From contig CAJWCU010000010.1 in assembly GCA_913030825.1 (NCBI GenBank), forward strand, positions 1-64,000: a stretch of DNA of 64,000 nucleotides. The letters are read 5' to 3'. The position numbers and the translations under genes were made by a program. Below are positions 3,939 to 21,707 of this stretch, one piece after another. The notes under the pieces are model-generated. The model saw only the letters and a program-made list of their open reading frames with translations. It was not told where the DNA came from and did no database searches. Numbering within the stretch: the stretch's first letter is position 1; each line of letters opens with the position of its first letter. Source of the stretch: an uncultured Rhodospirillaceae bacterium (lineage in GTDB: Bacteria; Pseudomonadota; Alphaproteobacteria; Rhodospirillales; Casp-alpha2).

Positions 3939-5735
3939 ATGACCGCAACGGCCCAGACTTCGGAAACCCGGACTTCGGAAACGACGCCCCCGCCCGCGAA
4001 CGGCCGCCCGTTCCGCGTGATGTTCGTGCACGCGCCGGACCCCGTCTATTCCGACACCCAGACCTATGGCGCGATCTTCATGCCGGTCTGGGCCTATACG
4101 CTCGCCGCGCATATTCCGGACGATATGGGCGTGGAGATATTGCTCCACGACACCCGGGTCCAGGGAAAGACGAACATCGCCGAGGCCGATCTGTATCTGT
4201 TTTCCGGCATCAACCAGGACGCGGCCTTCATGAACAAGGTCCGCGCCGAATTGAAGGTCCGGTTCCCGGCGGCGCGTTCCATGGTCGGCGGGCCCGTTGC
4301 CTGGTCGTTCGACCAGGCCGGCATGCTGGAACAGTTGAAAGATTTCGACCATGTCTTCGTCGGCGACGCCGAAGCCTCCATCGCCGGCCTGATTTCAGAC
4401 GTCCGCGACGGCCAGCCCATGGACCATGTCCTGAAGGCGCCCGGCCGCTTCGAAATCGCCCAGTCCAAGCCCATGCACCGTGGCCTGATGGATGCAACCA
4501 TCGCCCGCTACTACGGTGCCGTCATCGAGGTTTCGCGCGGCTGCCCGTTCCTGTGCGAATTCTGCGACATCCGCATCATGGACGACAACAATCGGCCGCA
4601 TAACAAATCGGCCGACCTGATCGTCGAGGAACTGGATCATCTCTGCGAAATGGGCGTCAGCCAGATTTTGTTCGCTTGCGACAATTTCATCGGCGAGCCG
4701 CGTTGGGCCGAGATGGTGATCGACAAAATTCTCGCCTGGAAGGAACGCACGGGCCATACGCCGTCGCTCTATACCTGGCTGACCATCAACCTGCACAACC
4801 ACCCGGAATTGATGGCCAAGATGCGCCGCGCCGGTTTCGACATGCTGTTCATCGGCATCGAAAGCTTCTCCAAGAATTCGTTGCTGGAAACCGCCAAGGT
4901 GCAGAATTCGGCGACGGAACTGACCCAGGTCGTGCGGGAAATCCAGTCGCGCGGCTTCATCGTCGTCGGCGGCCTGATCTTCGGCTTCGACTCGGATGAC
5001 GAGGACTGCTTCGACATCACCTTGAAGGGCCTGACCGAGGCCGCTCTGCTGTCCGGCGATCCCAGCTTGCTGACGGCGCTGCCGGGCACGCCGCTTTACC
5101 GCCGCATGAAGCTGTCCAAGCGCCTGCGCGACGTGCGCTTCGGGTTGGGCGGCTACAAGTACCAGACCAACATCAAATACCTGCTGCCCCGGCGGCGGAT
5201 GATCGACGGCTACAAGCATTTCGTCGATGTCTTCACCGACGGTGAATATCAGTACAACCGCCTGAAAGCCTTCTTCGACCTACAGGCCGAAGGCCACCAC
5301 GTGCCGATCGAAGGCCAGGGCTTCGGCAATACGGGCCTGTTCCTGAAGATGGTATTCAAGAACTGGCGGGCCTTGCTGCAACTGACGCAGCGCCTGGCCC
5401 GGTTCTCCATGAAGCCGTCCCGCGTCTATTACGCGCTGAAGGGCTTCGGCATGGCGTTTTCCCGCCGCAAACAGGTGCCCAACTGGTTCGGCTATTTCCA
5501 GTTCTGGCTGTTCGCCTGGACCAATGCGGCGCTCAAGTACCTGAACCTGTCGGACGCCGACTTCGACATCGAAAGCGTGCCCGAAGACTTCGACATCGCG
5601 GGCATCCTGCCGTCCGATTACGGCACGACCGCGGCCGAGCCGATCCCCGCCGGCAAGATCAAGGCACAGCTGCGCGCCACCACGGCGCAGTTGGAAAGCG
5701 TGATCGAACGGAAAAAGACCGCCGCCGCGGGATAG
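3939..5735 (+). CDS. B12-binding domain radical SAM protein
   Basis: This 598-aa protein starts at ATG 3939; an in-frame GTG at 3876 would add 21 residues. The N-terminal ~180 residues form a cobalamin-binding Rossmann-type domain. The radical SAM core follows, with the CxxxCxxC cluster in SRGCPFLCEFCDI and the strand FACDNFIGEP. Later motifs such as FIGIESFSKNSL and VVGGLIFGFDSDD are usual for this class. The C-terminal ~150 residues resemble the DUF4070-type extension found in hopanoid and lipid methylases such as HpnP. Such enzymes usually methylate or rearrange an unreactive carbon. The position after a GtrB-like glycosyltransferase suggests a lipid or glycolipid substrate, which is inference. 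Confidence 0.88.
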   Translation: MTATAQTSETRTSETTPPPANGRPFRVMFVHAPDPVYSDTQTYGAIFMPVWAYTLAAHIPDDMGVEILLHDTRVQGKTNIAEADLYLFSGINQDAAFMNKVRAELKVRFPAARSMVGGPVAWSFDQAGMLEQLKDFDHVFVGDAEASIAGLISDVRDGQPMDHVLKAPGRFEIAQSKPMHRGLMDATIARYYGAVIEVSRGCPFLCEFCDIRIMDDNNRPHNKSADLIVEELDHLCEMGVSQILFACDNFIGEPRWAEMVIDKILAWKERTGHTPSLYTWLTINLHNHPELMAKMRRAGFDMLFIGIESFSKNSLLETAKVQNSATELTQVVREIQSRGFIVVGGLIFGFDSDDEDCFDITLKGLTEAALLSGDPSLLTALPGTPLYRRMKLSKRLRDVRFGLGGYKYQTNIKYLLPRRRMIDGYKHFVDVFTDGEYQYNRLKAFFDLQAEGHHVPIEGQGFGNTGLFLKMVFKNWRALLQLTQRLARFSMKPSRVYYALKGFGMAFSRRKQVPNWFGYFQFWLFAWTNAALKYLNLSDADFDIESVPEDFDIAGILPSDYGTTAAEPIPAGKIKAQLRATTAQLESVIERKKTAAAG

Positions 5736-5846
5736 CGCGCCCGCATTATCCGTAATACTCTCTTCCGCCTTCGCCCGCCCTCCGGCGTCCGGACGGGCCC
5801 GGTAAGGCCGCCCCTCGCATTTTTCCCCCGCTCCGGAGACCAGCCC

Positions 5847-6800
5847 GTGAAACCGATCGTCCTGTTCAAACGCAAAGCCCCCTATATCGAGGACGAATTG
5901 GCCGGCGATTTCGAGATGTTCGATTACGTCCCCGCCGACGGCGTGCCGGGTGCTGACGTTCTGGCCAAGGCCAAGGTGCTGGTGACCTCGGGCATCGAAG
6001 GGGCGTCGGCCGAGGAAATGGACGCCATGCCCGACCTGGGCCTGATCTGCACCGTCGGCACGGGGTATGAAGGCGTCGACGTCGCCGCCGCCAAGGCACG
6101 CGGCATCCAGGTGACCCATGCCGCCAGCGTCAACGCCCCCGCCGTCGCCGACCATGTCTTCGCCCTGCTGCTGGGCGCCGTCCGGGCGATCCCGACCTAT
6201 CATGCCTCGGCCTCGTCGGGGAATTGGCGCCACGGCATCGCGACCCGGCCCATGGCCGCGGGCAAGCGGATGGGCATCGTCGGCATGGGGTCCATCGGGT
6301 TGGAGGTCGCGCGCCGGGCCGTCGGCTTCGACATGGCCGTCGCCTATATGTCGCGCCGCGAGAAAGATGACCTGCCCTGGCCGTTTCTAGCCGATATCAA
6401 CGAACTGGCCGAATGGGCGGACTATCTGGTGATTTCCGTGCCGGGCGGGGCCGAGACCCATCACATGATCAATCGCGGCGTGCTCAAGGCGCTGGGCCCC
6501 GACGGATACGTCGTCAGCGTCGGGCGCGGCAGCGTCGTCAAGACGGACGACCTGATCGCCGCCATCCGGGCCGGTGAGGTCGCCGGTGCGGGCATCGATG
6601 TTTACGAGAACGAACCGGACATTCCCGAAGGTCTTCGCGACCTGCCCAACGTGGTGCTGACGCCGCATGTCGCGGGCACGGCCAACGAAACCCGCGTCAT
6701 CGCGGCCAAGCTGATGCGCGGCAATATCGAGGCTTATCTGGCCGGTGAACGCCCCGCCAGCTTGGTTCCCGAACTGGCCGCCGAGTTGGGCAACGGCTGA
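5847..6800 (+). CDS. D-isomer-specific 2-hydroxyacid dehydrogenase
   Basis: This 317-aa NAD(P)-dependent dehydrogenase reduces 2-keto acids such as hydroxypyruvate or glyoxylate, or runs the reverse reaction. GTG 5847 is preceded by CCGGAGA about 9 nt upstream. The nucleotide-binding motif is GIVGMGSIGLEVARR. The catalytic Arg, Glu and His can be seen in SVGRGSVVKTDDL, GAGIDVYENEP and VLTPHVAG. It stands alone between the radical SAM gene and the ABC-F gene. The family (GhrB/hydroxypyruvate reductase-like) is clear; substrate preference cannot be fixed from sequence. Confidence 0.9.
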   Translation: MKPIVLFKRKAPYIEDELAGDFEMFDYVPADGVPGADVLAKAKVLVTSGIEGASAEEMDAMPDLGLICTVGTGYEGVDVAAAKARGIQVTHAASVNAPAVADHVFALLLGAVRAIPTYHASASSGNWRHGIATRPMAAGKRMGIVGMGSIGLEVARRAVGFDMAVAYMSRREKDDLPWPFLADINELAEWADYLVISVPGGAETHHMINRGVLKALGPDGYVVSVGRGSVVKTDDLIAAIRAGEVAGAGIDVYENEPDIPEGLRDLPNVVLTPHVAGTANETRVIAAKLMRGNIEAYLAGERPASLVPELAAELGNG

Positions 6801-6895
6801 TCCGCCACCGCCCTTTTCCCGGCGGCCGGGAATGGCGTATGGTGCCGCCGCTTCGCATAACCCCTTCGACCCTTTAGACGACAAGGCCCGCGCCG

Positions 6896-12915: not shown

Positions 12916-13602
12916 ATGGCTTATGTCATTCCCCAACCGCCCCAATCCGCCCTGCCGGTTGCCGGTACGGACGATTCCTTTCCCGTGCGCCGGGTCTATT
13001 GCGTCGGCCGCAACTATGCCGAACACGCCATCGAAATGGGCCACGATCCCAACCGCGAGCCGCCGTTCTTCTTTCAGAAGTGCCCGGACAACCTAGCCGT
13101 CGGCGGCGGCGATTGGCCCTATCCGGTCGCCTCGAACGACGTGCATTGGGAACTGGAGCTGGTCGTCGGCCTGAAGGAAGGCGGCACCGACATCCCCGCC
13201 GCCAAGGCGCTGGACCATGTCTACGGCTATGCCGTGGCGTTGGACATGACGCGCCGCGATCTGCAGGGTGCCGCCAAGAAGATGGGCCGCCCCTGGGACA
13301 CCGGCAAGGCGTTCGAGCTTTCCGCCCCCTGCACGGCGATCCATCCGGCATCCGAGGTCGGCCATCCGTCGGAAGGCCGCATCTGGCTGGAATGCAACGG
13401 CGAGATCCGCCAGGACGGCGACCTGAACCAGATGATCTGGAAAATCCCGGAAATGATCGAATACCTCTCGGGCCTGTTCACCCTGGCGCCGGGCGACCTG
13501 ATTCTGACCGGCACGCCGGCCGGCGTCGGCCCGGTGCAGCGGGGCGACACCCTGCACGGCGTGGTCGACGGCGTGGACGAGTTGACCATCAAGGTGGTCT
13601 AA
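12916..13602 (+). CDS. fumarylacetoacetate hydrolase family protein (fumarylpyruvate hydrolase-like)
   Basis: This 228-aa FAH-fold hydrolase starts at ATG 12916 with AAGGA at 12904-12908. Motifs are VRRVYCVGRNYAEHA, REPPFFFQKCPDN and the metal-binding Glu pair in VHWELELVVGL. ALDMTRRDLQ carries the third acidic ligand, and LILTGTPAGVGPVQRGD closes the core. The length and N-terminus match short fumarylpyruvate (NagK-type) hydrolases that split acylpyruvates in aromatic degradation. No aromatic ring-cleavage genes are nearby, so a general acylpyruvase role is equally possible. A strong terminator follows directly. Confidence 0.87.
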   Translation: MAYVIPQPPQSALPVAGTDDSFPVRRVYCVGRNYAEHAIEMGHDPNREPPFFFQKCPDNLAVGGGDWPYPVASNDVHWELELVVGLKEGGTDIPAAKALDHVYGYAVALDMTRRDLQGAAKKMGRPWDTGKAFELSAPCTAIHPASEVGHPSEGRIWLECNGEIRQDGDLNQMIWKIPEMIEYLSGLFTLAPGDLILTGTPAGVGPVQRGDTLHGVVDGVDELTIKVV

Positions 13603-13617
13603 CTCTTTAAAATATCG

Positions 13618-13656
13618 AAAAAAGCGGTGGAACCTGGGGTTTCCGCCGCTTTTTTT
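13618..13656 (+). terminator. Rho-independent terminator after FAH gene
   Basis: AAAAAAGCGGTGGAA at 13618-13632 pairs with TTCCGCCGCTTTTTT at 13641-13655 across an 8-nt loop. There is one G-U pair and the right arm ends in seven T. The A-run on the left means it could also work on the opposite strand. Confidence 0.85.
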
Positions 13657-13767
13657 GTGCCGAGAATCCGGCGCCCCTGCCCTTGATTTGCCCAATTCCG
13701 GCCCTGGGGCCGCCCCGCTTCCATGGTCTCCTTGTCCCCGCTTGGACGGAAATAAAGGAGATCCCCG

Positions 13768-13881
13768 ATGGAACCCTGGACAGCCTCCTGGACGGCCCTT
13801 GCGGTCGCCGTGCCGCTGACCGCGACGGCCCTTGCGGCGGAAGCCTTTCTGGATCTGCGGGATATGTTCTGGCTGTTTTGA
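13768..13881 (+). CDS. small hypothetical membrane peptide (37 aa)
   Basis: This short frame is preceded by AAGGAG at 13755-13760, 7 nt before ATG 13768, and ends with TGA at 13879-13881. It encodes 37 residues. The first 25 are hydrophobic and small (LAVAVPLTATALAAEAF), so one membrane segment or a signal-like helix is likely, followed by LDLRDMFWLF. It stands alone between the FAH terminator and the convergent DUF2927 gene. No family is recognised. Support is the strong ribosome-binding site and the amphipathic/hydrophobic pattern only. Confidence 0.45.
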   Translation: MEPWTASWTALAVAVPLTATALAAEAFLDLRDMFWLF

Positions 13882-13904
13882 CGGCCGAATGACGCGCTGA
13901 CCGG

Positions 13905-14714
13905 CTACTTACCGGGCCGGTTCACGGCCAGGAACTTGGCCGCCAGCGGCAGCGCCTGTTCGGGCTTCATGCCGGCTTTCATGCGCGGATCATAGAGCAT
14001 GCGCAGCATCCAACGATCGGCCTCGGTCAGGTCGACGTGCGGGCTGTCGTCCGAGAAGATCGAGAACTTCAATCCCTTCACGTCGTTGATGAGGCCCATG
14101 ATCTGGGAAATCTCCTCGGTCACGCAGGCGCGCAGGAAGATCTTGGGATCAACCATGACGTTGCCGTACTTGACCTGAGAAACCATTTCCGCCGGAACCG
14201 CCGCATAGGCGAATTTCAAGGCACCCGACTTTCTGATCTGCATCCGGCCGTGGCAGAACCCCAGCTTCAGATACTTTTCGACGTCGGCGGCCTTGAACGC
14301 CCCCTTGGTGTTTTTTTCGATCAAGGCGCCCAATTCGGCCTTCGGCGCGAAAAACACCAGGACGTTGATCTTGATCTTGGAGACGTTGGGCGAAAGGCGC
14401 TTTTCCCGGCGCATGACCTCGGAATAAACCAGGTTCACCGGATGGCCGGTCTCCTTGGCCAAGTCGGCGATCTGTTTGACCACCAAGTCTTCGAACAGCT
14501 GCGGATAGCCTTTGCCGATGACGGCGACGTTGACCGGCGTTTCCCACTTGAGAATGCGGGGAGTGCGCTTTTCATATTCCGAGCCGAGCGAGACCCCGGC
14601 GAAGGCTTTCAGCAAATCGACGTTGGAAACGTCCTGCGCCCGCGCCGTGGGGACGGCCGCAGCCAGAAGAAAGAAAACGAAGACCAGGAAACGGATCGGC
14701 ATGGAAAAAGTCAT
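13905..14714 (-). CDS. secreted DUF2927 protein
   Basis: This 269-aa exported protein has a signal peptide ending in VPTARA, with cleavage expected near residue 26. The mature part matches the DUF2927 pattern. CVTEEISQIMGLIND carries the conserved Cys, Glu and Gln, and SIFSDDSPHVDLTEADR is followed by RMLYDPRMKAGM. DUF2927 proteins have distant zincin-like features, but no full HExxH motif is seen here. ATG 14714 is chosen because AGGATAGGG lies just upstream; a second ATG follows four codons later. It is the last gene, 23 nt behind three degenerate GGDEF-EAL-like genes, so it may be an output or partner of that set. Confidence 0.78.
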   Translation of the reverse strand: MTFSMPIRFLVFVFFLLAAAVPTARAQDVSNVDLLKAFAGVSLGSEYEKRTPRILKWETPVNVAVIGKGYPQLFEDLVVKQIADLAKETGHPVNLVYSEVMRREKRLSPNVSKIKINVLVFFAPKAELGALIEKNTKGAFKAADVEKYLKLGFCHGRMQIRKSGALKFAYAAVPAEMVSQVKYGNVMVDPKIFLRACVTEEISQIMGLINDVKGLKFSIFSDDSPHVDLTEADRWMLRMLYDPRMKAGMKPEQALPLAAKFLAVNRPGK

Positions 14715-14737
14715 GCCCTATCCTAGCAAGGAAAAGC

Positions 14738-15919
14738 CTAGCCGACCATGTCGTCGATGTGAAATCCCTGGAACATGGTGATGCCGCAGGCATGGCCGGT
14801 CTTGATGGCGATTTCATCGTCGACGCGGGCCAGGACCAGCACGGTCCCCCGTTGCTGCAGGCTATGAACCGTTTCCTTCATCGCCGGCAACACCGTCTCG
14901 GCGCCCGGCCGCCAGAAAATCTTCGCCAATTTGGCGCCCAGGCGCGGCAGGTCGAGAACGCCTAAGCTGTCGGGGATGATCGCGTCGATGGCGATGGTGC
15001 CGCCGCGCTGGTTGATCAATTCCGACGCGGTCTGGAATTGGTCCCAGTTCTGCAGAATGTTTTCGGCGCGGAATTCCAGAACCAGGCTGCTCAGCGATTT
15101 CTCGCTTTTTTCCAGCAGGCTCTGGAACGAATGGGTGAACACGGTCTCGACGTTCAGGTTCAGCGACGCCTTGGCGCGGTCCGGATTGACCTCGTCGAAG
15201 CATTCGATGAGCATCTGATCGAGCGACCGGGTCAGGTGCTGAAACACCAGCCCCGCCCCCCGGAAATCGACGCCCGTCAGGATGTGCTGACGGATCATTT
15301 CGACGGAAATGAAGTATTCCTTCATCACCGGCATGGGCGCCTTGCCCGGCGTGATCAGGGCCGTGACCTGGGAGCGGATGAAGTTGTCCGTGAAGGTCTT
15401 CTTGCCCATCTTGCGCATGCCGTCGCGCACGACCTGGATGTCGCTTTCGCGCAGCGGCCGGGAATCGCCGGTGGCGACGCCGGCTTCCTTGGCGCGGTCG
15501 TCGAAGGTCTGCAGGAACTTGATGGCATTCTGGATGCGGCCCTGCAGCGGGATGATCCGCAGCATGCGCGACTGATCGATCTGCGAGAAATACTCGGAGA
15601 AGTTCTGCTGAATGACCCGGATCAGGTCGACCTTGAGCTCGGACGTCCATTCCATCTGATTGTACTCGTTGAGCTTCATCAGAAGAGCGGTATCCGTATT
15701 GGTCAGGCGGTAGACTTCGGCGCCGCGGCGTTCGCGCGACCGTTCGTAAGACTCGTCGGTCTTCTTGCGAAGTTCCTTGTCCTCTTCCTCGGACATGCCG
15801 AGGGTCGAAAAGCTGACGAGAATCAGATGGTTGGGCTCCTCGGCCCCCCCCTTCCAATTCTTCAATCGGGTCAGCAGCTTGAGATGGTCGCCGCCGCCGC
15901 CTGAGCTTGCTTCAGCCAT
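14738..15919 (-). CDS. degenerate GGDEF-EAL-like protein, paralogue A
   Basis: This 393-aa protein starts at ATG 15919-15917, with GGAGAG just upstream; a TTG five codons earlier lacks one. Residues ~30-170 resemble a worn GGDEF domain: a strand HLILVSFS, a long helix, then VYRLTNTDTALLMKL where RLGGDEF would be. Residues ~195-393 follow EAL order: SLNLNVETVF (VNVS strand), LVLEFRAENIL (LEITE), IAIDAIIPD (DDFG), AKLAKIFW (KID), VLVLARVDDE (AEGVE) and MFQGFHIDDM (LQGY). The catalytic Glu of EAL, the second Asp of DDFG and the Glu of AEGVE are missing. It is probably a non-catalytic sensor or scaffold. It belongs to a three-paralogue tandem set. Confidence 0.72.
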   Translation of the reverse strand: MAEASSGGGGDHLKLLTRLKNWKGGAEEPNHLILVSFSTLGMSEEEDKELRKKTDESYERSRERRGAEVYRLTNTDTALLMKLNEYNQMEWTSELKVDLIRVIQQNFSEYFSQIDQSRMLRIIPLQGRIQNAIKFLQTFDDRAKEAGVATGDSRPLRESDIQVVRDGMRKMGKKTFTDNFIRSQVTALITPGKAPMPVMKEYFISVEMIRQHILTGVDFRGAGLVFQHLTRSLDQMLIECFDEVNPDRAKASLNLNVETVFTHSFQSLLEKSEKSLSSLVLEFRAENILQNWDQFQTASELINQRGGTIAIDAIIPDSLGVLDLPRLGAKLAKIFWRPGAETVLPAMKETVHSLQQRGTVLVLARVDDEIAIKTGHACGITMFQGFHIDDMVG

Positions 15920-16056
15920 GAACTCTCCAAACAAGTCTCATATTGAGATCAATCAGGTTAATACGATGTATTCCCTGCAAGAACAATGCCCGCGGAAAAT
16001 TTCCCGCAACCGTCCGGTCACCAAACCGTCATTCGCAGGCGGGGAGAAACGCGGGA

Positions 16057-17244
16057 TTACAGCATCATGCCTTCGACATGCAGGCCCTGGAAGGCGGTGA
16101 TGCCGACCTCGCGCCCGACCTGAAGGCCCAATTCGGAATCGACGCGGCACAACACGACAATGCAACCCGCCTCCTGCGCCTGGCGGATGTTGGCGCGATT
16201 GCGCGCCAGATCTTCGATGCCCGACTGCCGCCAGGCGATCTTTGCGATATTGGCATTGAAGCCAGCCAGATTGATCACGCCGAGCGCCGCCGGATCGATG
16301 ATATCGACGGCGATGTTTCCGCCCAGGCCCCGAACGGTCGATTGGGCCGCCACGTACTGGCGCAGGTCCCGCATGATATCGGCCATGCGTAATTCGACGA
16401 TGACGTTGCTGAGCTTGGCCTCCCCGTTGGCGGCGATGAATTTCTGAAACGCGTTTCCGCCGACCGATTCCAACGTCAGGTTCAAGGCGCATTTGGCGCC
16501 CGACGGATTGAACAGCTTGTGCATGCCCAGCATCAGCCCGTCGAGCGTCAGGGTCAGTTGGGGGAACAGGGGGTCGGATTCATGGATGGCGACATTGTTC
16601 AGGATGTCCGAGCCCAACAGGTCCAGTCGGACGTAATATTCGCGGGCGATGGGCACCGGCGGCTTGCCGCCGGAGATCAGGGTGATCGACTGGCCCTGCA
16701 CGTAAGTTTCCGCGAAGGCCTTGTCGCCGGTCTTGGCATAGAGCGAACGCAGGGTCTGAACGTCCGACGCATTCAGGGGGCGCGTGCCGTCGGCGCCGGC
16801 AATCACCCCGGTTTCCTTGGCCCGTTCCTCGAAGGCTTCGAGGAAGCGCAGGGCACCGGCCATCTGGGTCGCCATGTCGATGGTCCGCACGATCTTGGTT
16901 TGATTGACCTCGGCGACCTTTTCCGGCGCCTCTTCCTGGAGAATTTTCAACAACTGCATCTTCAGGTCCTGGGGCACCTCCATCCGGTTCATTTCCGTGA
17001 GGCTGCAGACCAGGGCGATGTTCGTGGGAGACAATTGATACGCCTCTCCGTTTCGCACCCGCGCGATCCGCGCGTGCAACTCGGCGATCTCGTCCATCAG
17101 GATGTCGTCGTCTTCGGGCAGACCGAGTTCGGCCAGATCGACCAGCAACAGGGTGTTCAGGTCGCTTTTCTTCGACCCCATGCCCCGCAGTTTCTTGAGA
17201 AGATCGACGGCGTCGCCCGCCATGGGTGAAGACCCGAATGCCAT
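16057..17244 (-). CDS. degenerate GGDEF-EAL-like protein, paralogue B
   Basis: This 395-aa protein is the middle member of the tandem set. The worn GGDEF position reads AYQLSPTNIALVCSL. EAL-order segments are LNLTLESVGGNAF, VIVELRMADIM, VAVDIIDPAA, ANIAKIAW, IVVLCRVDSE and AFQGLHVEGM. The Asn of the VNxS strand is replaced by Thr. Only the Glu of LExxE, one Asp, the Lys and the Gln are kept, so it is the most divergent of the three. Start ATG 17244-17242 has only a weak ribosome site. It lies 46 nt after paralogue C and 137 nt before paralogue A on the same strand. Phosphodiesterase activity is not expected. Confidence 0.7.
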   Translation of the reverse strand: MAFGSSPMAGDAVDLLKKLRGMGSKKSDLNTLLLVDLAELGLPEDDDILMDEIAELHARIARVRNGEAYQLSPTNIALVCSLTEMNRMEVPQDLKMQLLKILQEEAPEKVAEVNQTKIVRTIDMATQMAGALRFLEAFEERAKETGVIAGADGTRPLNASDVQTLRSLYAKTGDKAFAETYVQGQSITLISGGKPPVPIAREYYVRLDLLGSDILNNVAIHESDPLFPQLTLTLDGLMLGMHKLFNPSGAKCALNLTLESVGGNAFQKFIAANGEAKLSNVIVELRMADIMRDLRQYVAAQSTVRGLGGNIAVDIIDPAALGVINLAGFNANIAKIAWRQSGIEDLARNRANIRQAQEAGCIVVLCRVDSELGLQVGREVGITAFQGLHVEGMML

Positions 17245-17290
17245 ATCGCGTTTCCGATCGTTTCCCGTTCAGACGCCTACCCGTCCGGGC

Positions 17291-18523
17291 CTAGGCGCCG
17301 CCCTTGCCGGCCCCACCGCCGGCCAGCAATTTGTCCACGTGGTAGCCCTGGAACAAATTGATCCCGAGGCTTTGTCCGATTTTCACCGCCTGTTCATCGT
17401 CGACATGCGCCAGCACCATGACCGTACCGCCTTCCTGCATGGCGCGGATATCGTCCTTGGCCTGCATCAGATCGTCGACCGCGTCGCCATGCCACATGAT
17501 CTTGGCCATCTTGACCTTGAGCCGGTGCAGGTTGACGACACCCAGCGTCTCGGTCTGCACGTTGTCGATGGCAACCGACCCGCCTTTGTTGGCGATCAGC
17601 TCACACGCCGTCTGGAACTGGCTGAAATGCTGGAACATGTTGTCCTGACGGAATTCGACGATCACGCCCTTGAGCCCGGCGTCGCCGCCGTCACGCAGAT
17701 AGTGCTCGAAGGCGTTCGTGAAGACCGTCTCGACGTTCATGTTGAGTGAAGTTTTCGCCCGTTCCGGCGTGACCGCGCCGATGCAATAGAGCAGCGCCTG
17801 ATCGAAGGTCAGGGTCAGTTGGTTGAAGACGTTGCCGGTGCCGCGAAAGTCGACGCCTCGCAGGACGTTCTGCTTCAACAGGTTGATGCCGACATAATAT
17901 TCCGTCATCGCGGGGACTACCGGCTGGCCCTGTTTGATGACCGCGGCGGTTTGCGAGCGGATATAGCGTTTGCCGAACTCGCGCGGGCCCAGCTTGCGCA
18001 GGACGTCGCGGAGCTTCTGGATATCCTGCATGTTGAGCGGCCGCTCGCCCGTGTCGGCGTCGGCGGTGGTTTCCTTGCGCCGGTCGCCGTAGGCCTCGAG
18101 GAACCGCTTGGCCGTATCCAGACGCGTCGCCAAGTCGATCGGCCTGATCAGGCGCGCCTGATCGATCTTGGAAAAATGTTCGGGCAGGTTGTGCTGGATC
18201 ACCCGCATGAGGTCGACCTTCAGGTCCATCATGGTTTCCATGCGGTTGAAATCGGCCAACTTGATAAGGATCGCGGTGTCCAGGGCGGACAGCTTGTAGA
18301 CCGCGCCGCCACGGGCATGGACGAACGTGAGGAAGGCTTCCTCCAACGCCTGCTGCACGCCTTCCTGTTCGCCCGGCATGCCAAGCGTCGTGAAGGAGAC
18401 CAGCAACAGGTGATTGACGTCGGAATCAACCGCCGACCAATGGTTGAGCGCCTCCATCAGGCCATGAATGTCGCCGATTTCGCCGCCGGGCTCGCCGCCC
18501 GAACCGGCATTCAGGATATCCAA
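17291..18523 (-). CDS. degenerate GGDEF-EAL-like protein, paralogue C
   Basis: This 410-aa protein is the first gene of the tandem set. A TTG start at 18523-18521 is preferred because AGGAGG lies 6 nt upstream; the upstream GTG at 18544 would place that site inside the gene. It has a Gly-rich N-terminus. The worn GGDEF position reads VYKLSALDTAILIKL. EAL-order segments are LNMNVETVF, VIVEFRQDNMF, VAIDNVQTET, VKMAKIMW, VMVLAHVDDE and LFQGYHVDKL. Asn, Glu, one Asp, Lys and Gln of the EAL site remain, while the EAL Glu, the second Asp and the AEGVE Glu are lost. A Gly-rich tail ends the protein. Binding without hydrolysis of c-di-GMP or another nucleotide is possible but unproven. Confidence 0.72.
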   Translation of the reverse strand: MDILNAGSGGEPGGEIGDIHGLMEALNHWSAVDSDVNHLLLVSFTTLGMPGEQEGVQQALEEAFLTFVHARGGAVYKLSALDTAILIKLADFNRMETMMDLKVDLMRVIQHNLPEHFSKIDQARLIRPIDLATRLDTAKRFLEAYGDRRKETTADADTGERPLNMQDIQKLRDVLRKLGPREFGKRYIRSQTAAVIKQGQPVVPAMTEYYVGINLLKQNVLRGVDFRGTGNVFNQLTLTFDQALLYCIGAVTPERAKTSLNMNVETVFTNAFEHYLRDGGDAGLKGVIVEFRQDNMFQHFSQFQTACELIANKGGSVAIDNVQTETLGVVNLHRLKVKMAKIMWHGDAVDDLMQAKDDIRAMQEGGTVMVLAHVDDEQAVKIGQSLGINLFQGYHVDKLLAGGGAGKGGA

Positions 18524-18669
18524 CCTTCGCCTCCTCTTCCGCACCGGCTATGCCCCGGTATCGGAACCACCGTGGCCGTTGCCCGGCCACGGTCCCTTGG
18601 GCGCAGTATAACCCCAAAGCAAAACCCTTCGCCAACAAGGCTTTAGTTATAATTTGGACGTTTTTCGCC

Positions 18670-20253
18670 TTAGCCGGTGGAGCGATGCGGCAGCGGCAAC
18701 GAAATCACCGCCTTGAGGCCGCCTTCCACCCGGTTTTCAAGGCGAATGTCCCCGCCGTGCGCCCGCACGACGGTCCGCGCGATCGCCAACCCCAGGCCGA
18801 CGCCCCCAGTTTCCTGACTGCGTGAGGATTCCAGCCGGGTGAACGGCTCGAACACGGTATCGAACTGGTCTTCCGGAATGCCCGGGCCGTCGTCTTCCAC
18901 CGAGATCAGGATTTCCGTCGTGCCCGCCTGAACGCCGATCCGCGCCTCTGCCCCATAGCGCGCGGCGTTTTCCGCCAAGTTGCGAACCGCCCGCTTGATC
19001 GCCGTCGGCTGACAAGTCAGGCGTATCGGTTCACGCGCGCCGTCGAAACAGGCCGCCATCCCCGCGTCCGTCAACTCATACGCGACCTCGGCACAAAGCT
19101 TGGCGACGTCTTCTTCCCGCGCCGCTTCGCCGCCCTGGGCATCCCGGGCGAAGGCGAGCGTCGCTTCGGTGATGCGTTCCATCTCGTCCAGGGTCTTCAG
19201 GATCTTCTCGCGGTTTTCGGCATCGTCCTTGATGAATTCGGCCCGCAAGCGCAGCGACGTCAGCGGCGTGCGCAGGTCGTGGCTGATCGCCGCCAACATC
19301 GCGGTGCGGTCGGCGACGAAGCGGTGCAGGCGTTCCTGCATGCGGTTGAAGGCATCGGTCGTGCGGCGGATTTCACCGGGTCCCGTGGGCGTCAACGGGG
19401 CCACGGCCTCGCCCCGGCCCAACGCATCGGCCGCCGCGGCCAAATCGTTCAACGGCCGGGTCAAACGCCGCACGATCAGGATGCTGACCAGCGAGATCGC
19501 CAGAACCGTCAGCAGCAACACGGTCATCGTCCGCCCACCCCACAGGCGCGCCGGTTTGGCCGCCAGTTCGCCGTTCAGCCAGCGCCCGTCGCTGAGCGGC
19601 ACGGACAACACCAATCCGGCGGGCAGCATGCGGGGCGGCCGGTCGGCGCCGCCGGGGGCACGGAATCCATCCAGTCCCGGGATCATATGGCCCGGCCCGT
19701 GATCGTCTCCCGAATGGTCGGCGCGGTGACGCTCATGATCGTCGTCGTCTTTACCGTGATCGTCGTCGTCATGGCGGGGGCGGTCGTGCGAGTCGCGATG
19801 CCAGCGGCGCAACAGGTCCGGCATGGGGAACGGCCCCCAGTCCTCGCGGTCCACCACCCGGACAAGGACCGGGCCGGGGCGCGGCCCATCGAGTCGATCC
19901 AACAACGTGTCCGTGAACAGGTTGTCGCGGGCGTCCGGTCCGTCGCCGGCGGCAGCGTCGGGCGCGACCCAGAACCGAAGACGGGTGCTGGTCGCCGCCG
20001 CCAGCATGGATTGCGTCAGGGCCGGATCCTCGGGACGCGGCAGCAGATCGAGCATCCGGACCAGCGAGGCCGTTCGCTGCATGACCAATTCGCGCCGCGC
20101 GTTGATGATCGCTTCGTGCCGTTCCGAGGCGAAAAACGCGGCGCTGACGATCTGCGCGATCAGGAGAGCCGCCAGCAGGGACATAATCAGCTGCCCCGCC
20201 AGGGAGCGGGGCCAGAGACGGCGAAACCAGGACGCGGGGGTCAGAGCGTTCAT
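18670..20253 (-). CDS. sensor histidine kinase with His/Asp-rich periplasmic loop
   Basis: This 527-aa membrane kinase has ATG 20253-20251 overlapping the response-regulator stop by 4 nt (ATGA). TM1 is at residues ~20-42 and TM2 at ~240-262 (TVLLLTVLAISLVSILIV), followed by HAMP. The dimerisation and phosphoacceptor motif is AAISHDLRTPLTSLRL, then NLAENAARYG (N box), EDDGPGIP, FEPFTRLESS and GVGLGLAIA. Periplasmic residues 152-189 hold nine His and many Asp, including runs of four Asp, which suggests metal binding. The regulator gene precedes it, and a divergent EF-hand gene lies beyond. A cation such as calcium, zinc, nickel or copper is the likely signal, by inference. Confidence 0.9.
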   Translation of the reverse strand: MNALTPASWFRRLWPRSLAGQLIMSLLAALLIAQIVSAAFFASERHEAIINARRELVMQRTASLVRMLDLLPRPEDPALTQSMLAAATSTRLRFWVAPDAAAGDGPDARDNLFTDTLLDRLDGPRPGPVLVRVVDREDWGPFPMPDLLRRWHRDSHDRPRHDDDDHGKDDDDHERHRADHSGDDHGPGHMIPGLDGFRAPGGADRPPRMLPAGLVLSVPLSDGRWLNGELAAKPARLWGGRTMTVLLLTVLAISLVSILIVRRLTRPLNDLAAAADALGRGEAVAPLTPTGPGEIRRTTDAFNRMQERLHRFVADRTAMLAAISHDLRTPLTSLRLRAEFIKDDAENREKILKTLDEMERITEATLAFARDAQGGEAAREEDVAKLCAEVAYELTDAGMAACFDGAREPIRLTCQPTAIKRAVRNLAENAARYGAEARIGVQAGTTEILISVEDDGPGIPEDQFDTVFEPFTRLESSRSQETGGVGLGLAIARTVVRAHGGDIRLENRVEGGLKAVISLPLPHRSTG

Positions 20254-20981
20254 CGCTCGACGATCTCGACCGGGGCGGCGAAGCTGTATCCACCCCCCCA
20301 ATGGGTCTTGATGAACTCAGGATTGCGGGCGTCTTTTTCGACCTTCTTGCGCAGGCGCGAGACCTGGTTGTCGATGGCCCGGTCGAACAGCTGCGCCGTG
20401 CGCCCACGCGTCAGGTCGAGCAATTGATCCCGGTTCAACACCCGGCCGGGATGGCGCAGGAAGACGCCGAGCAACAGACTTTCCCCGGTCGAAAGCGCGA
20501 CCGCCTCGCCCTGCCCACCGCCGCCGGTCAGAGCCTGGGTCTGCGGATCGAACAGCCAATCGCCGAACCGGTAGCACTGGCCCGGCGGCTCGCCCGCGGC
20601 CGGCGGCAGCGTTGCCGTCCGCCGCAGAACGGCCTTGATACGGGCCAACAGTTCGCGCGGGTTGAACGGTTTGGTGACGTAATCGTCGGCGCCCATTTCC
20701 AGGCCGACGATGCGGTCGGTCTCCTCGGCCATGGCGGTCAGAAGGATGACCGGCAGATTCGTCGTCGCCCGTAAATCACGGCACAGAGACAGGCCGTCCT
20801 CACCCGGCATCATGATGTCGAGCACGACCAGATCGATGGCGCTGGTCTCCAGGGCCTGACGAGCGGTCGCGGCGCGGTCGGCGGTCGTCACCCGGTAGCC
20901 GTGCTCTTTCAGGTAACGCGCCATGGCGTCCCGAATGTCGGGGTGGTCGTCGACGACCAGAATGTGTTCGCTGTCGGTCAT
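20250..20981 (-). CDS. OmpR-family response regulator
   Basis: This 243-aa regulator has a receiver domain (residues 5-120) with acidic pocket VVDDHPD, phosphoacceptor Asp55 in VVLDIMMPGEDG, and the switch Lys in DYVTKPFNPREL. The C-terminal winged-helix domain includes FDRAIDNQVSRLRKKVE and THWGGGYSF, the OmpR/PhoB pattern. It is the first gene of the pair and overlaps the kinase start by 4 nt. It is transcribed away from the EF-hand gene across a 213-nt spacer with direct repeats at ~10-bp spacing, which are likely binding sites. The regulon should include itself and the EF-hand gene. Confidence 0.93.
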   Translation of the reverse strand: MTDSEHILVVDDHPDIRDAMARYLKEHGYRVTTADRAATARQALETSAIDLVVLDIMMPGEDGLSLCRDLRATTNLPVILLTAMAEETDRIVGLEMGADDYVTKPFNPRELLARIKAVLRRTATLPPAAGEPPGQCYRFGDWLFDPQTQALTGGGGQGEAVALSTGESLLLGVFLRHPGRVLNRDQLLDLTRGRTAQLFDRAIDNQVSRLRKKVEKDARNPEFIKTHWGGGYSFAAPVEIVER

Positions 20982-21066
20982 GTCGTTAAATGGCGTGTTG
21001 TGGCCTCCGTTCGGCCTCTGTCATCGGCAACTATGCCGGATCGCCGTGAACGGGCGGGCAAAAAAA

Positions 21067-21194: not shown

Positions 21195-21707
21195 ATGGCA
21201 CATCCCCATCGCATGAAACTGCACACCAAGATCATCCTCGGCGCCCTGACCACGGCCGCCGTCGTCGGCGGCGGTGTCGCCTTTGCCGAAGCCGATTACC
21301 GCGGCCATCACGGCAAGCACGGCGGCGGCGAACGCATCGACCGCATGTTCGAGCGTTATGACGCCAACAACGACGGCAAGATCACCAAGGCCGAGATCGA
21401 AACCGCCCGCAAGGCATCGATCACCAAATACGACGCCGACAAGGACGGCCAGCTGTCGCTTGAGGAATTCAACGGCCTGTTCAACGAAATCATGCGTCAT
21501 CGCATGGTCCGCATGTTCCAGAAATTCGACCGCGACGGCGACGCCAAGGTCTCGGAAGCCGAAATCTCGCGCAAAGTCGATCGCATGATGAGCTGGATGG
21601 ACCGGGACGATAACGGCGAGATCGAACGCGACGAGCTGCGCCGCCATCGCAAGCATCGCGACGGCGACGGCGAAGGCCGCCGCTATCACGGCAAGGACCG
21701 CGACTAG
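21195..21707 (+). CDS. exported EF-hand calcium-binding protein
   Basis: This 170-aa protein starts at ATG 21195 with AAGGA 8 nt upstream. A signal peptide (residues 7-31, ending GGGVAFAEA) exports it. Four EF-hand loops follow: DANNDGKITKAE at 56-67, DADKDGQLSLEE at 80-91, DRDGDAKVSEAE at 112-123 and DRDDNGEIERDE at 136-147. Loops 1, 2 and 4 have the full calcium pattern; loop 3 has Ala at position 7, a backbone-coordinating place, and looks usable. The tail is rich in His, Arg and Asp. It is divergent from a two-component system with a His/Asp-rich sensor loop, so it probably buffers or senses periplasmic cations and is controlled by that system. Confidence 0.9.
   Translation: MAHPHRMKLHTKIILGALTTAAVVGGGVAFAEADYRGHHGKHGGGERIDRMFERYDANNDGKITKAEIETARKASITKYDADKDGQLSLEEFNGLFNEIMRHRMVRMFQKFDRDGDAKVSEAEISRKVDRMMSWMDRDDNGEIERDELRRHRKHRDGDGEGRRYHGKDRD

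Follow-up and report, generated by a model that had tools for sequence, protein, structure and literature searches.

Receptors that keep the GGDEF-EAL architecture and are catalytically dead are well known, LapD, FimX and CsrD being the familiar examples. We analysed a window of 64,000 nucleotides (the whole stretch, positions 1 to 64,000 of contig CAJWCU010000010.1, assembly GCA_913030825.1, from an uncultured Rhodospirillaceae bacterium) in which three adjacent minus-strand genes of 393-410 codons, here called A, B and C, had been described in an original prediction, made by eye, as tandem paralogues with a worn GGDEF domain followed by an EAL-like domain. We put at about even chances that their products are catalytically dead receptors of the GGDEF-EAL type with a preserved half-site, whose ligand binding and output we infer. 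The three genes do lie as described:

17291..18523, minus strand: gene A, GGDEF-EAL-like paralogue of 410 residues; TTG start, picked by eye because a ribosome-binding-like site lies upstream of it
16057..17244, minus strand: gene B, paralogue of 395 residues, on the longest branch
14738..15919, minus strand: gene C, 393 residues; ATG picked by eye, the open reading frame being open from a TTG at 15934
18044..18475, minus strand: residues 17-160 of A, predicted N-terminal ferredoxin-like (GGDEF-like) domain, with hairpin Asp D82
17315..17977, minus strand: residues 183-403 of A, EAL-like barrel

LapD has the same two-lobe GGDEF-EAL order, has lost its catalytic residues and is the best fold match of A. 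LapD is described as a membrane protein with a HAMP domain, whereas A, B and C are without an evident membrane part; it carries KVL instead of EAL and then a binding-site Arg, whereas A, B and C have probably kept the Glu and probably lost the Arg; and its GGDEF lobe caps the EAL pocket, the binding of cyclic di-GMP (c-di-GMP) to the EAL domain being relayed to the periplasm (PMC3032553). The palm domain of A, B and C, of about 140 residues, is also unlike that of LapD.

FimX, a receptor without catalysis (PMC12943098), is within the top 50 fold matches of A. It has a PilZ partner, whereas no PilZ or pilus gene was seen here among those neighbours that were named. CsrD is a degenerate dual-domain protein to which A and C show weak matches, and differs from the three proteins in being a transmembrane HAMP protein (PMC3032553). 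TipF of Caulobacter, a degenerate EAL receptor, can be likened to them by class and by the receptor idea, as judged from its description (PMC7987155). No HAMP or periplasmic domain was found in A, B or C with Pfam at E<=10 and, as no obvious membrane segment was seen by eye, the three are probably cytosolic.

Fold of the two halves

The homology of the C-terminal halves to EAL domains is directly supported. The Pfam EAL model (PF00563) matches A at E=6.1e-8, over the cut-off, and B and C at 2.6e-4 and 3.9e-4, both below it; these matches cover profile positions 81-233 only, and an EAL match at E<=0.01 was obtained for 17 of the 18 proteins of the genus. Profile-profile comparison (hhalign) of the C-terminal part gave probabilities of 91-96% with EAL alignments, or 77% for the set of single-copy proteins alone, and of 53-91% with GGDEF-EAL alignments, the target EAL alignments having been built from the same and related genomes. 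The sole NCBIfam match was CsrD (A 2.2e-4, C 0.018, far under the cut-off). Pfam and NCBIfam returned weak EAL or CsrD matches and no dedicated model for the family. A search of the PDB by sequence gave no match for A, and a profile search gave one weak match, BlrP1, at E 0.019.

Among the three proteins a structure was predicted for A. The AlphaFold2 model, made from 18 sequences, has a predicted local distance difference test score (pLDDT) of 79.6 and a predicted template modelling score (pTM) of 0.60, and its strand order is that of the EAL barrel. When the whole chain was compared with the PDB by Foldseek the top matches were GGDEF-EAL proteins, the first four of them LapD (best E 9.3e-13). 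By this model each protein should begin with a short GGDEF-like palm, joined through a helical linker to a barrel of the EAL type.

The N-terminal domain of A, modelled alone, reached a pLDDT of 80.9 and a pTM of 0.75. Its Foldseek matches began with LapD (1.8e-3 and 2.6e-3) and a GGDEF domain (3.9e-3); rank 4 was taken by an IS608-type transposase, after which came a further LapD match and cyclases. The hairpin residue that corresponds in position to the GGDEF Asp is Asp in the A and C groups and in both groups of tandem-pair proteins (see below), Asp or Glu in the single copies and Asn or Ser in the B group; gene B of the window has Asn.

These data also bear on a rival reading that we consider somewhat doubtful, in which the N-terminal domain is ferredoxin-like but unrelated to GGDEF and the protein is an EAL-like one with a different sensor. 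It gains from the lack of a sequence link, as the GG(D/E)EF signature is missing, Pfam gave no GGDEF (PF00990) match in A, B or C at E<=10 and hhalign with whole proteins gave GGDEF a probability of just 0.1-2.1%, and from the fold search with A, where no match fell below E 1e-3 and transposases and cyclases appear from rank 4. Three points tell against it: the fold search ranks LapD first and second and a GGDEF domain third, an EAL barrel follows the domain, and five of the six groups have Asp or Glu at the hairpin. The N-terminal half is thus, by its predicted fold, probably a worn GGDEF domain. The EAL part of the domain reading first proposed stands by sequence and fold, whereas its GGDEF part is borne out by a predicted fold that is the best and not the exclusive match, and not by sequence.

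Pocket residues, and proposed ligand and output

Conservation was counted over 78 family rows, namely 21 triplet, 16 single-copy, 20 P1 and 21 P2 proteins, where P1 and P2 are the two groups of tandem-pair proteins. For comparison we used 33 true EALs from the same genomes and from related ones. Because these were picked by the DDFG pattern both DDFG Asp residues are conserved in them by construction; among the remaining positions that were counted, 30/33 have the QP Gln, 32/33 the last AEGVE Glu and 33/33 the rest. The positions discussed below are encoded in gene A as follows:

17900-17902, minus strand: codon of E208 (register ambiguous)
17741-17743, minus strand: codon of N261
17654-17656, minus strand: codon of E290
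17564-17566, minus strand: codon of D320
17501-17503, minus strand: codon of K341
17348-17350, minus strand: codon of Q392

Eight columns show a single residue throughout the 78 rows (Q191, E208, F233, D241, N261, E290, D320 and G393, in gene A numbering), while K341 and Q392 are each kept in 77. N261, E290 and D320, in the confident part of the alignment, correspond to the metal-binding N387, E419 and D449 of ProE, an active enzyme; moreover K341 corresponds to K470, Q392 to Q526 and D375 (93.6%) to E509, and the spacing is the same as in ProE between E290 and D320 (30), D320 and K341 (21) and D375 and Q392 (17). Relative to ProE, D450, E506, E422, D472 and loop 6 are lost (residue roles from PMC7290235). 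In the alignments the family lacks the second DDFG Asp and the AEGVE Glu as well as loop 6. Wear of the pocket is uneven, being seen at the second Asp and the AEGVE Glu, as first described, and not at N261, E290, D320, K341 or Q392.

The statement that all three proteins lack the EAL Glu is doubtful, since C has a Glu (VEMIRQ) at the register probably intended and position 208 is Glu in all 78 family rows. E208, within the sequence EYY or EYF, lies in the second predicted barrel strand (203-211; block pLDDT 90), which is the expected place of the EAL Glu. By this predicted strand E208 of A is more likely the equivalent of the EAL Glu, the sequence being ambiguous. An alternative is position 214: of the 37 rows for triplet and single-copy proteins, 34 have Asp, Glu or Asn there, and the pair proteins have mostly other residues. 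We take E208, N261, E290 and D320 to be the metal-1 set and K341 to be the Lys of the catalytic water, the acids of the EAL pocket being divided between metal 1 and metal 2. For BlrP1, Asn239 is described as positioning metal 1 (PMC3989770). If E208 is the EAL Glu, the whole metal-1 set as we take it is kept and the substrate Arg of ExLxR is lost, an absence which depends on this register.

With the second DDFG Asp, the AEGVE Glu, loop 6 and perhaps the ExLxR Arg lost, hydrolysis of c-di-GMP would not be expected, and the probable loss of catalysis proposed at the outset holds up by the aligned residues. It is very unlikely, in our view, that the proteins are still enzymatic, as one-metal hydrolases acting on c-di-GMP, pGpG or another phosphodiester: the proposed metal-1 set, the Lys and the Gln are indeed retained, but the positions lost here are those of D450 and E506 of ProE, where replacement by alanine gave extremely low or no activity (PMC7290235).

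The same losses, to which the ExLxR Arg probably belongs, and the fact that CsrD is the only NCBIfam match would also suit a ligand-free scaffold, in which the EAL and GGDEF-like folds serve as protein (or RNA) contact surfaces only. Proteins of the YdiV and CsrD type are regarded as contact scaffolds of this kind. A pure scaffold has, however, no obvious need for the invariant E208, N261, E290 and D320 or for K341 and Q392, and we regard this alternative as unlikely. The most conserved positions of the family include N261, E290, D320, K341, Q392 and probably the EAL Glu, a pattern that favours a bound ligand over an empty scaffold.

For the dead receptor with a half-site we suggest that the barrel would use one metal to bind a phosphorylated ligand, either c-di-GMP or some nucleotide related to it. 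Position 373, the Gly of AEGVE, is Arg in 7/7 B, 7/7 C, 15/16 single-copy, 18/20 P1 and 21/21 P2 rows and His in all seven A rows; standing beside the lost Glu, this family Arg (His in A) may partly replace metal 2. By analogy with LapD, the two lobes would then change their mutual contact on ligand binding, and the signal would be relayed by contacts between proteins, the simplest arrangement being a hetero-oligomer of A, B and C. The co-maintenance of three paralogues suggests different partners or a hetero-oligomer, and the heteromeric sensor or scaffold of the original prediction is plausible. A bolder proposal seems to us distinctly unlikely, namely that these are one-metal EAL-fold sensors with an Arg in place of metal 2 and a ligand other than c-di-GMP, working as obligate hetero-oligomers (the heptose-side pair and the genus triplet) and forming an unrecognised class present in most searched genomes of the order.

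Several observations weigh against a dead nucleotide receptor. The dual-domain fold matches have TM-scores (by query) of 0.36-0.47 and root-mean-square deviations of about 12-16 Å, so the lobes are placed differently, and the fold matches of the N-terminal domain include the IS608-type transposases and adenylyl cyclases. Of 15 MAFFT runs, 6 align E208 with the EAL Glu (whole family 4/5, triplet and single copies 2/5, pair proteins alone 0/5), the hhalign columns put E208 elsewhere, with low confidence there, and the spacing departs from that of ProE between E208 and N261 (53 vs 59), N261 and E290 (29 vs 32) and Q191 and E208 (17 vs 14). The ExLxR Arg, a reported substrate binder, is likely lost, which argues against c-di-GMP as the ligand. 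Moreover no c-di-GMP gene was seen among those neighbours that were named, and the support for a joint clade of A, B and C is just 40/0.

If the family binds a nucleotide, it would be a common receptor that is under-counted by censuses of domain matches, and the kept half-site would offer a clean way to probe metal 1 alone in an EAL barrel. The triplet would represent one receptor type diversified side by side.

Distribution and phylogeny of the family

The triplet is not isolated, as the family was found in 136 of the 148 searched genomes of the order (all genome counts include the own genome of the window). It is present in 55/61 relatives, in 58/241 genomes of a class sample and in 4/199 genomes of a phylum sample, all four from the same class, the class make-up of the 199 not being displayed. 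No title or abstract start naming the family was found in the open papers searched.

Of the five members in the own genome, three form the triplet and the other two stand in tandem on a different contig, and all eight genomes of the genus have three adjacent triplet-type copies and two further matches; no triplet was seen elsewhere among the matches listed outside the genus. The arrangement is probably one of three diverged copies side by side where related genera hold a single copy. Elsewhere the family is often a tandem pair near sugar-nucleotide or heptose genes, the 22 fetched pair loci having been chosen as neighbouring matches. The arrangement is not uniform: the matches listed for f26, a family of the order, sit on separate contigs or at a distance from one another, and two separated matches of the triplet/single-copy type occur in some f19 genomes.

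In one genome a tandem pair consists of more distant family members (G000:C19:19275-21360), the second of which gave no Pfam match at E<=1. An open reading frame of 886 codons at locus L053 was considered as a fused pair and rejected, its first half being a wrong-frame reading frame. The family also matches nine plasmid records of Azospirillum, and in the two where the matching place is annotated the entry is 'hypothetical protein'; in A. lipoferum 4B AZO_p3 the gene (5641-6873, WP_044552904.1) stands before MotA/TolQ, OmpA-family and ATP synthase genes. A single in-frame TAG was observed in four family matches (G003:C210:3458-4645, G035:C39:5565-6713, G029:C22:14006-15145 and G567:C3:20374-21534), of which the one in G003 is a copy from the genus. 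These stops of four draft genomes may be errors or signs of decaying copies.

A, B and C are maintained. Pairwise identity is 36% between A and B and 45% between A and C, and C is the best conserved of the three within the genus. The ratio of nonsynonymous to synonymous change (dN/dS, NG86) of the window genes against five relatives was 0.04-0.23 for A, 0.09-0.27 for B and 0.04-0.14 for C, with synonymous distances of up to ~1, near saturation. These ratios indicate purifying selection on all three genes.

The tree was calculated from the 78 rows with a careful method; the wrong-frame row of L053 was excluded and two loci with interrupted or partial frames (L038 and L057) were left out. The A, B and C proteins of the genus (TA, TB and TC) and P2 each form one clade (bootstrap 99-100), and the triplet and single copies are split from the pair at 100/100. 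The single copies are grouped at 91/78 and A with C at 78/83. The local triplication first proposed is thus right as to the arrangement and finds no backing from the tree as one clade. With the low joint support given above, the tripling of one gene within the genus is a reading and not a result, and older duplications are possible.

Gene context speaks for an origin of the triplet in place. Of the 17 single-copy loci, 5 have one or more of the flanking gene clusters 18, 21, 22, 27 and 38 in common with triplet loci. Moreover clusters 14 and 18 are retained in L013, the earliest to branch within every triplet clade, and no kinase is seen on its short contig. We accordingly infer, with the reserve imposed by the tree, that the triplet may have arisen from one gene in place.

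Neighbouring genes and locus layout

The genes and elements around the triplet are the following:

13905..14714, minus strand: DUF2927 gene, 23 bases after C; Pfam DUF2927 E=1.2e-37; signal-peptide-like start (by eye)
18604..18651, minus strand: conserved non-coding block upstream of A, recognisable in 7 aligned triplet loci, including L013 (kinase not called there)
18670..20301, minus strand: presumed histidine kinase upstream of A; cluster called in 5/7 triplet loci; neighbour only
20250..20981, minus strand: presumed OmpR-type response regulator upstream of the kinase; cluster called in 4/7 triplet loci; neighbour only

The DUF2927 gene was rightly placed after the triplet, and it adjoins the triplet in 7/7 fetched loci and, by match coordinates, in all eight genomes of the genus. 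Outside the genus the adjacency was not seen, DUF2927 being beside the family gene in none of the 17 single-copy loci fetched there, and DUF2927 as an ancestral partner is therefore unsupported outside the genus. DUF2927 is scattered across the relatives (46 of 61 genomes), is multi-copy in many of them (up to 6 matches) and gave no match in 14 control genomes. Its name was not found in the open literature searched.

An NAD-dependent sugar epimerase (Pfam) was found within the fetched stretch of the pair in 17 of the 22 loci, together with genes which we take from their sequence to be HldE-like (12/22) and GmhA-like (7/22). An FAD-oxidoreductase/GCV_T protein is encoded near 10 of the 17 single-copy loci.

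Genes B and C are separated by 137 bases. Promoters picked by eye before A and C were dropped, as a consensus scan gave no sigma-70-type site in 13600-18800, including the block upstream of A; a TATACT-like motif was seen upstream of 4 of the 16 single-copy genes printed. Rfam gave no match within 13000-21000.

The presumed kinase contains a His/Asp-rich insert (runs such as DDDDHGKDDDDHERH), by eye possibly metal-related and not seen in the L020 kinase. Finally, a small protein with a signal-like start is encoded on the plus strand at 21195-21707, and carries the repeats DANNDGKIT and DADKDGQLS, which we take to be EF-hand-like.

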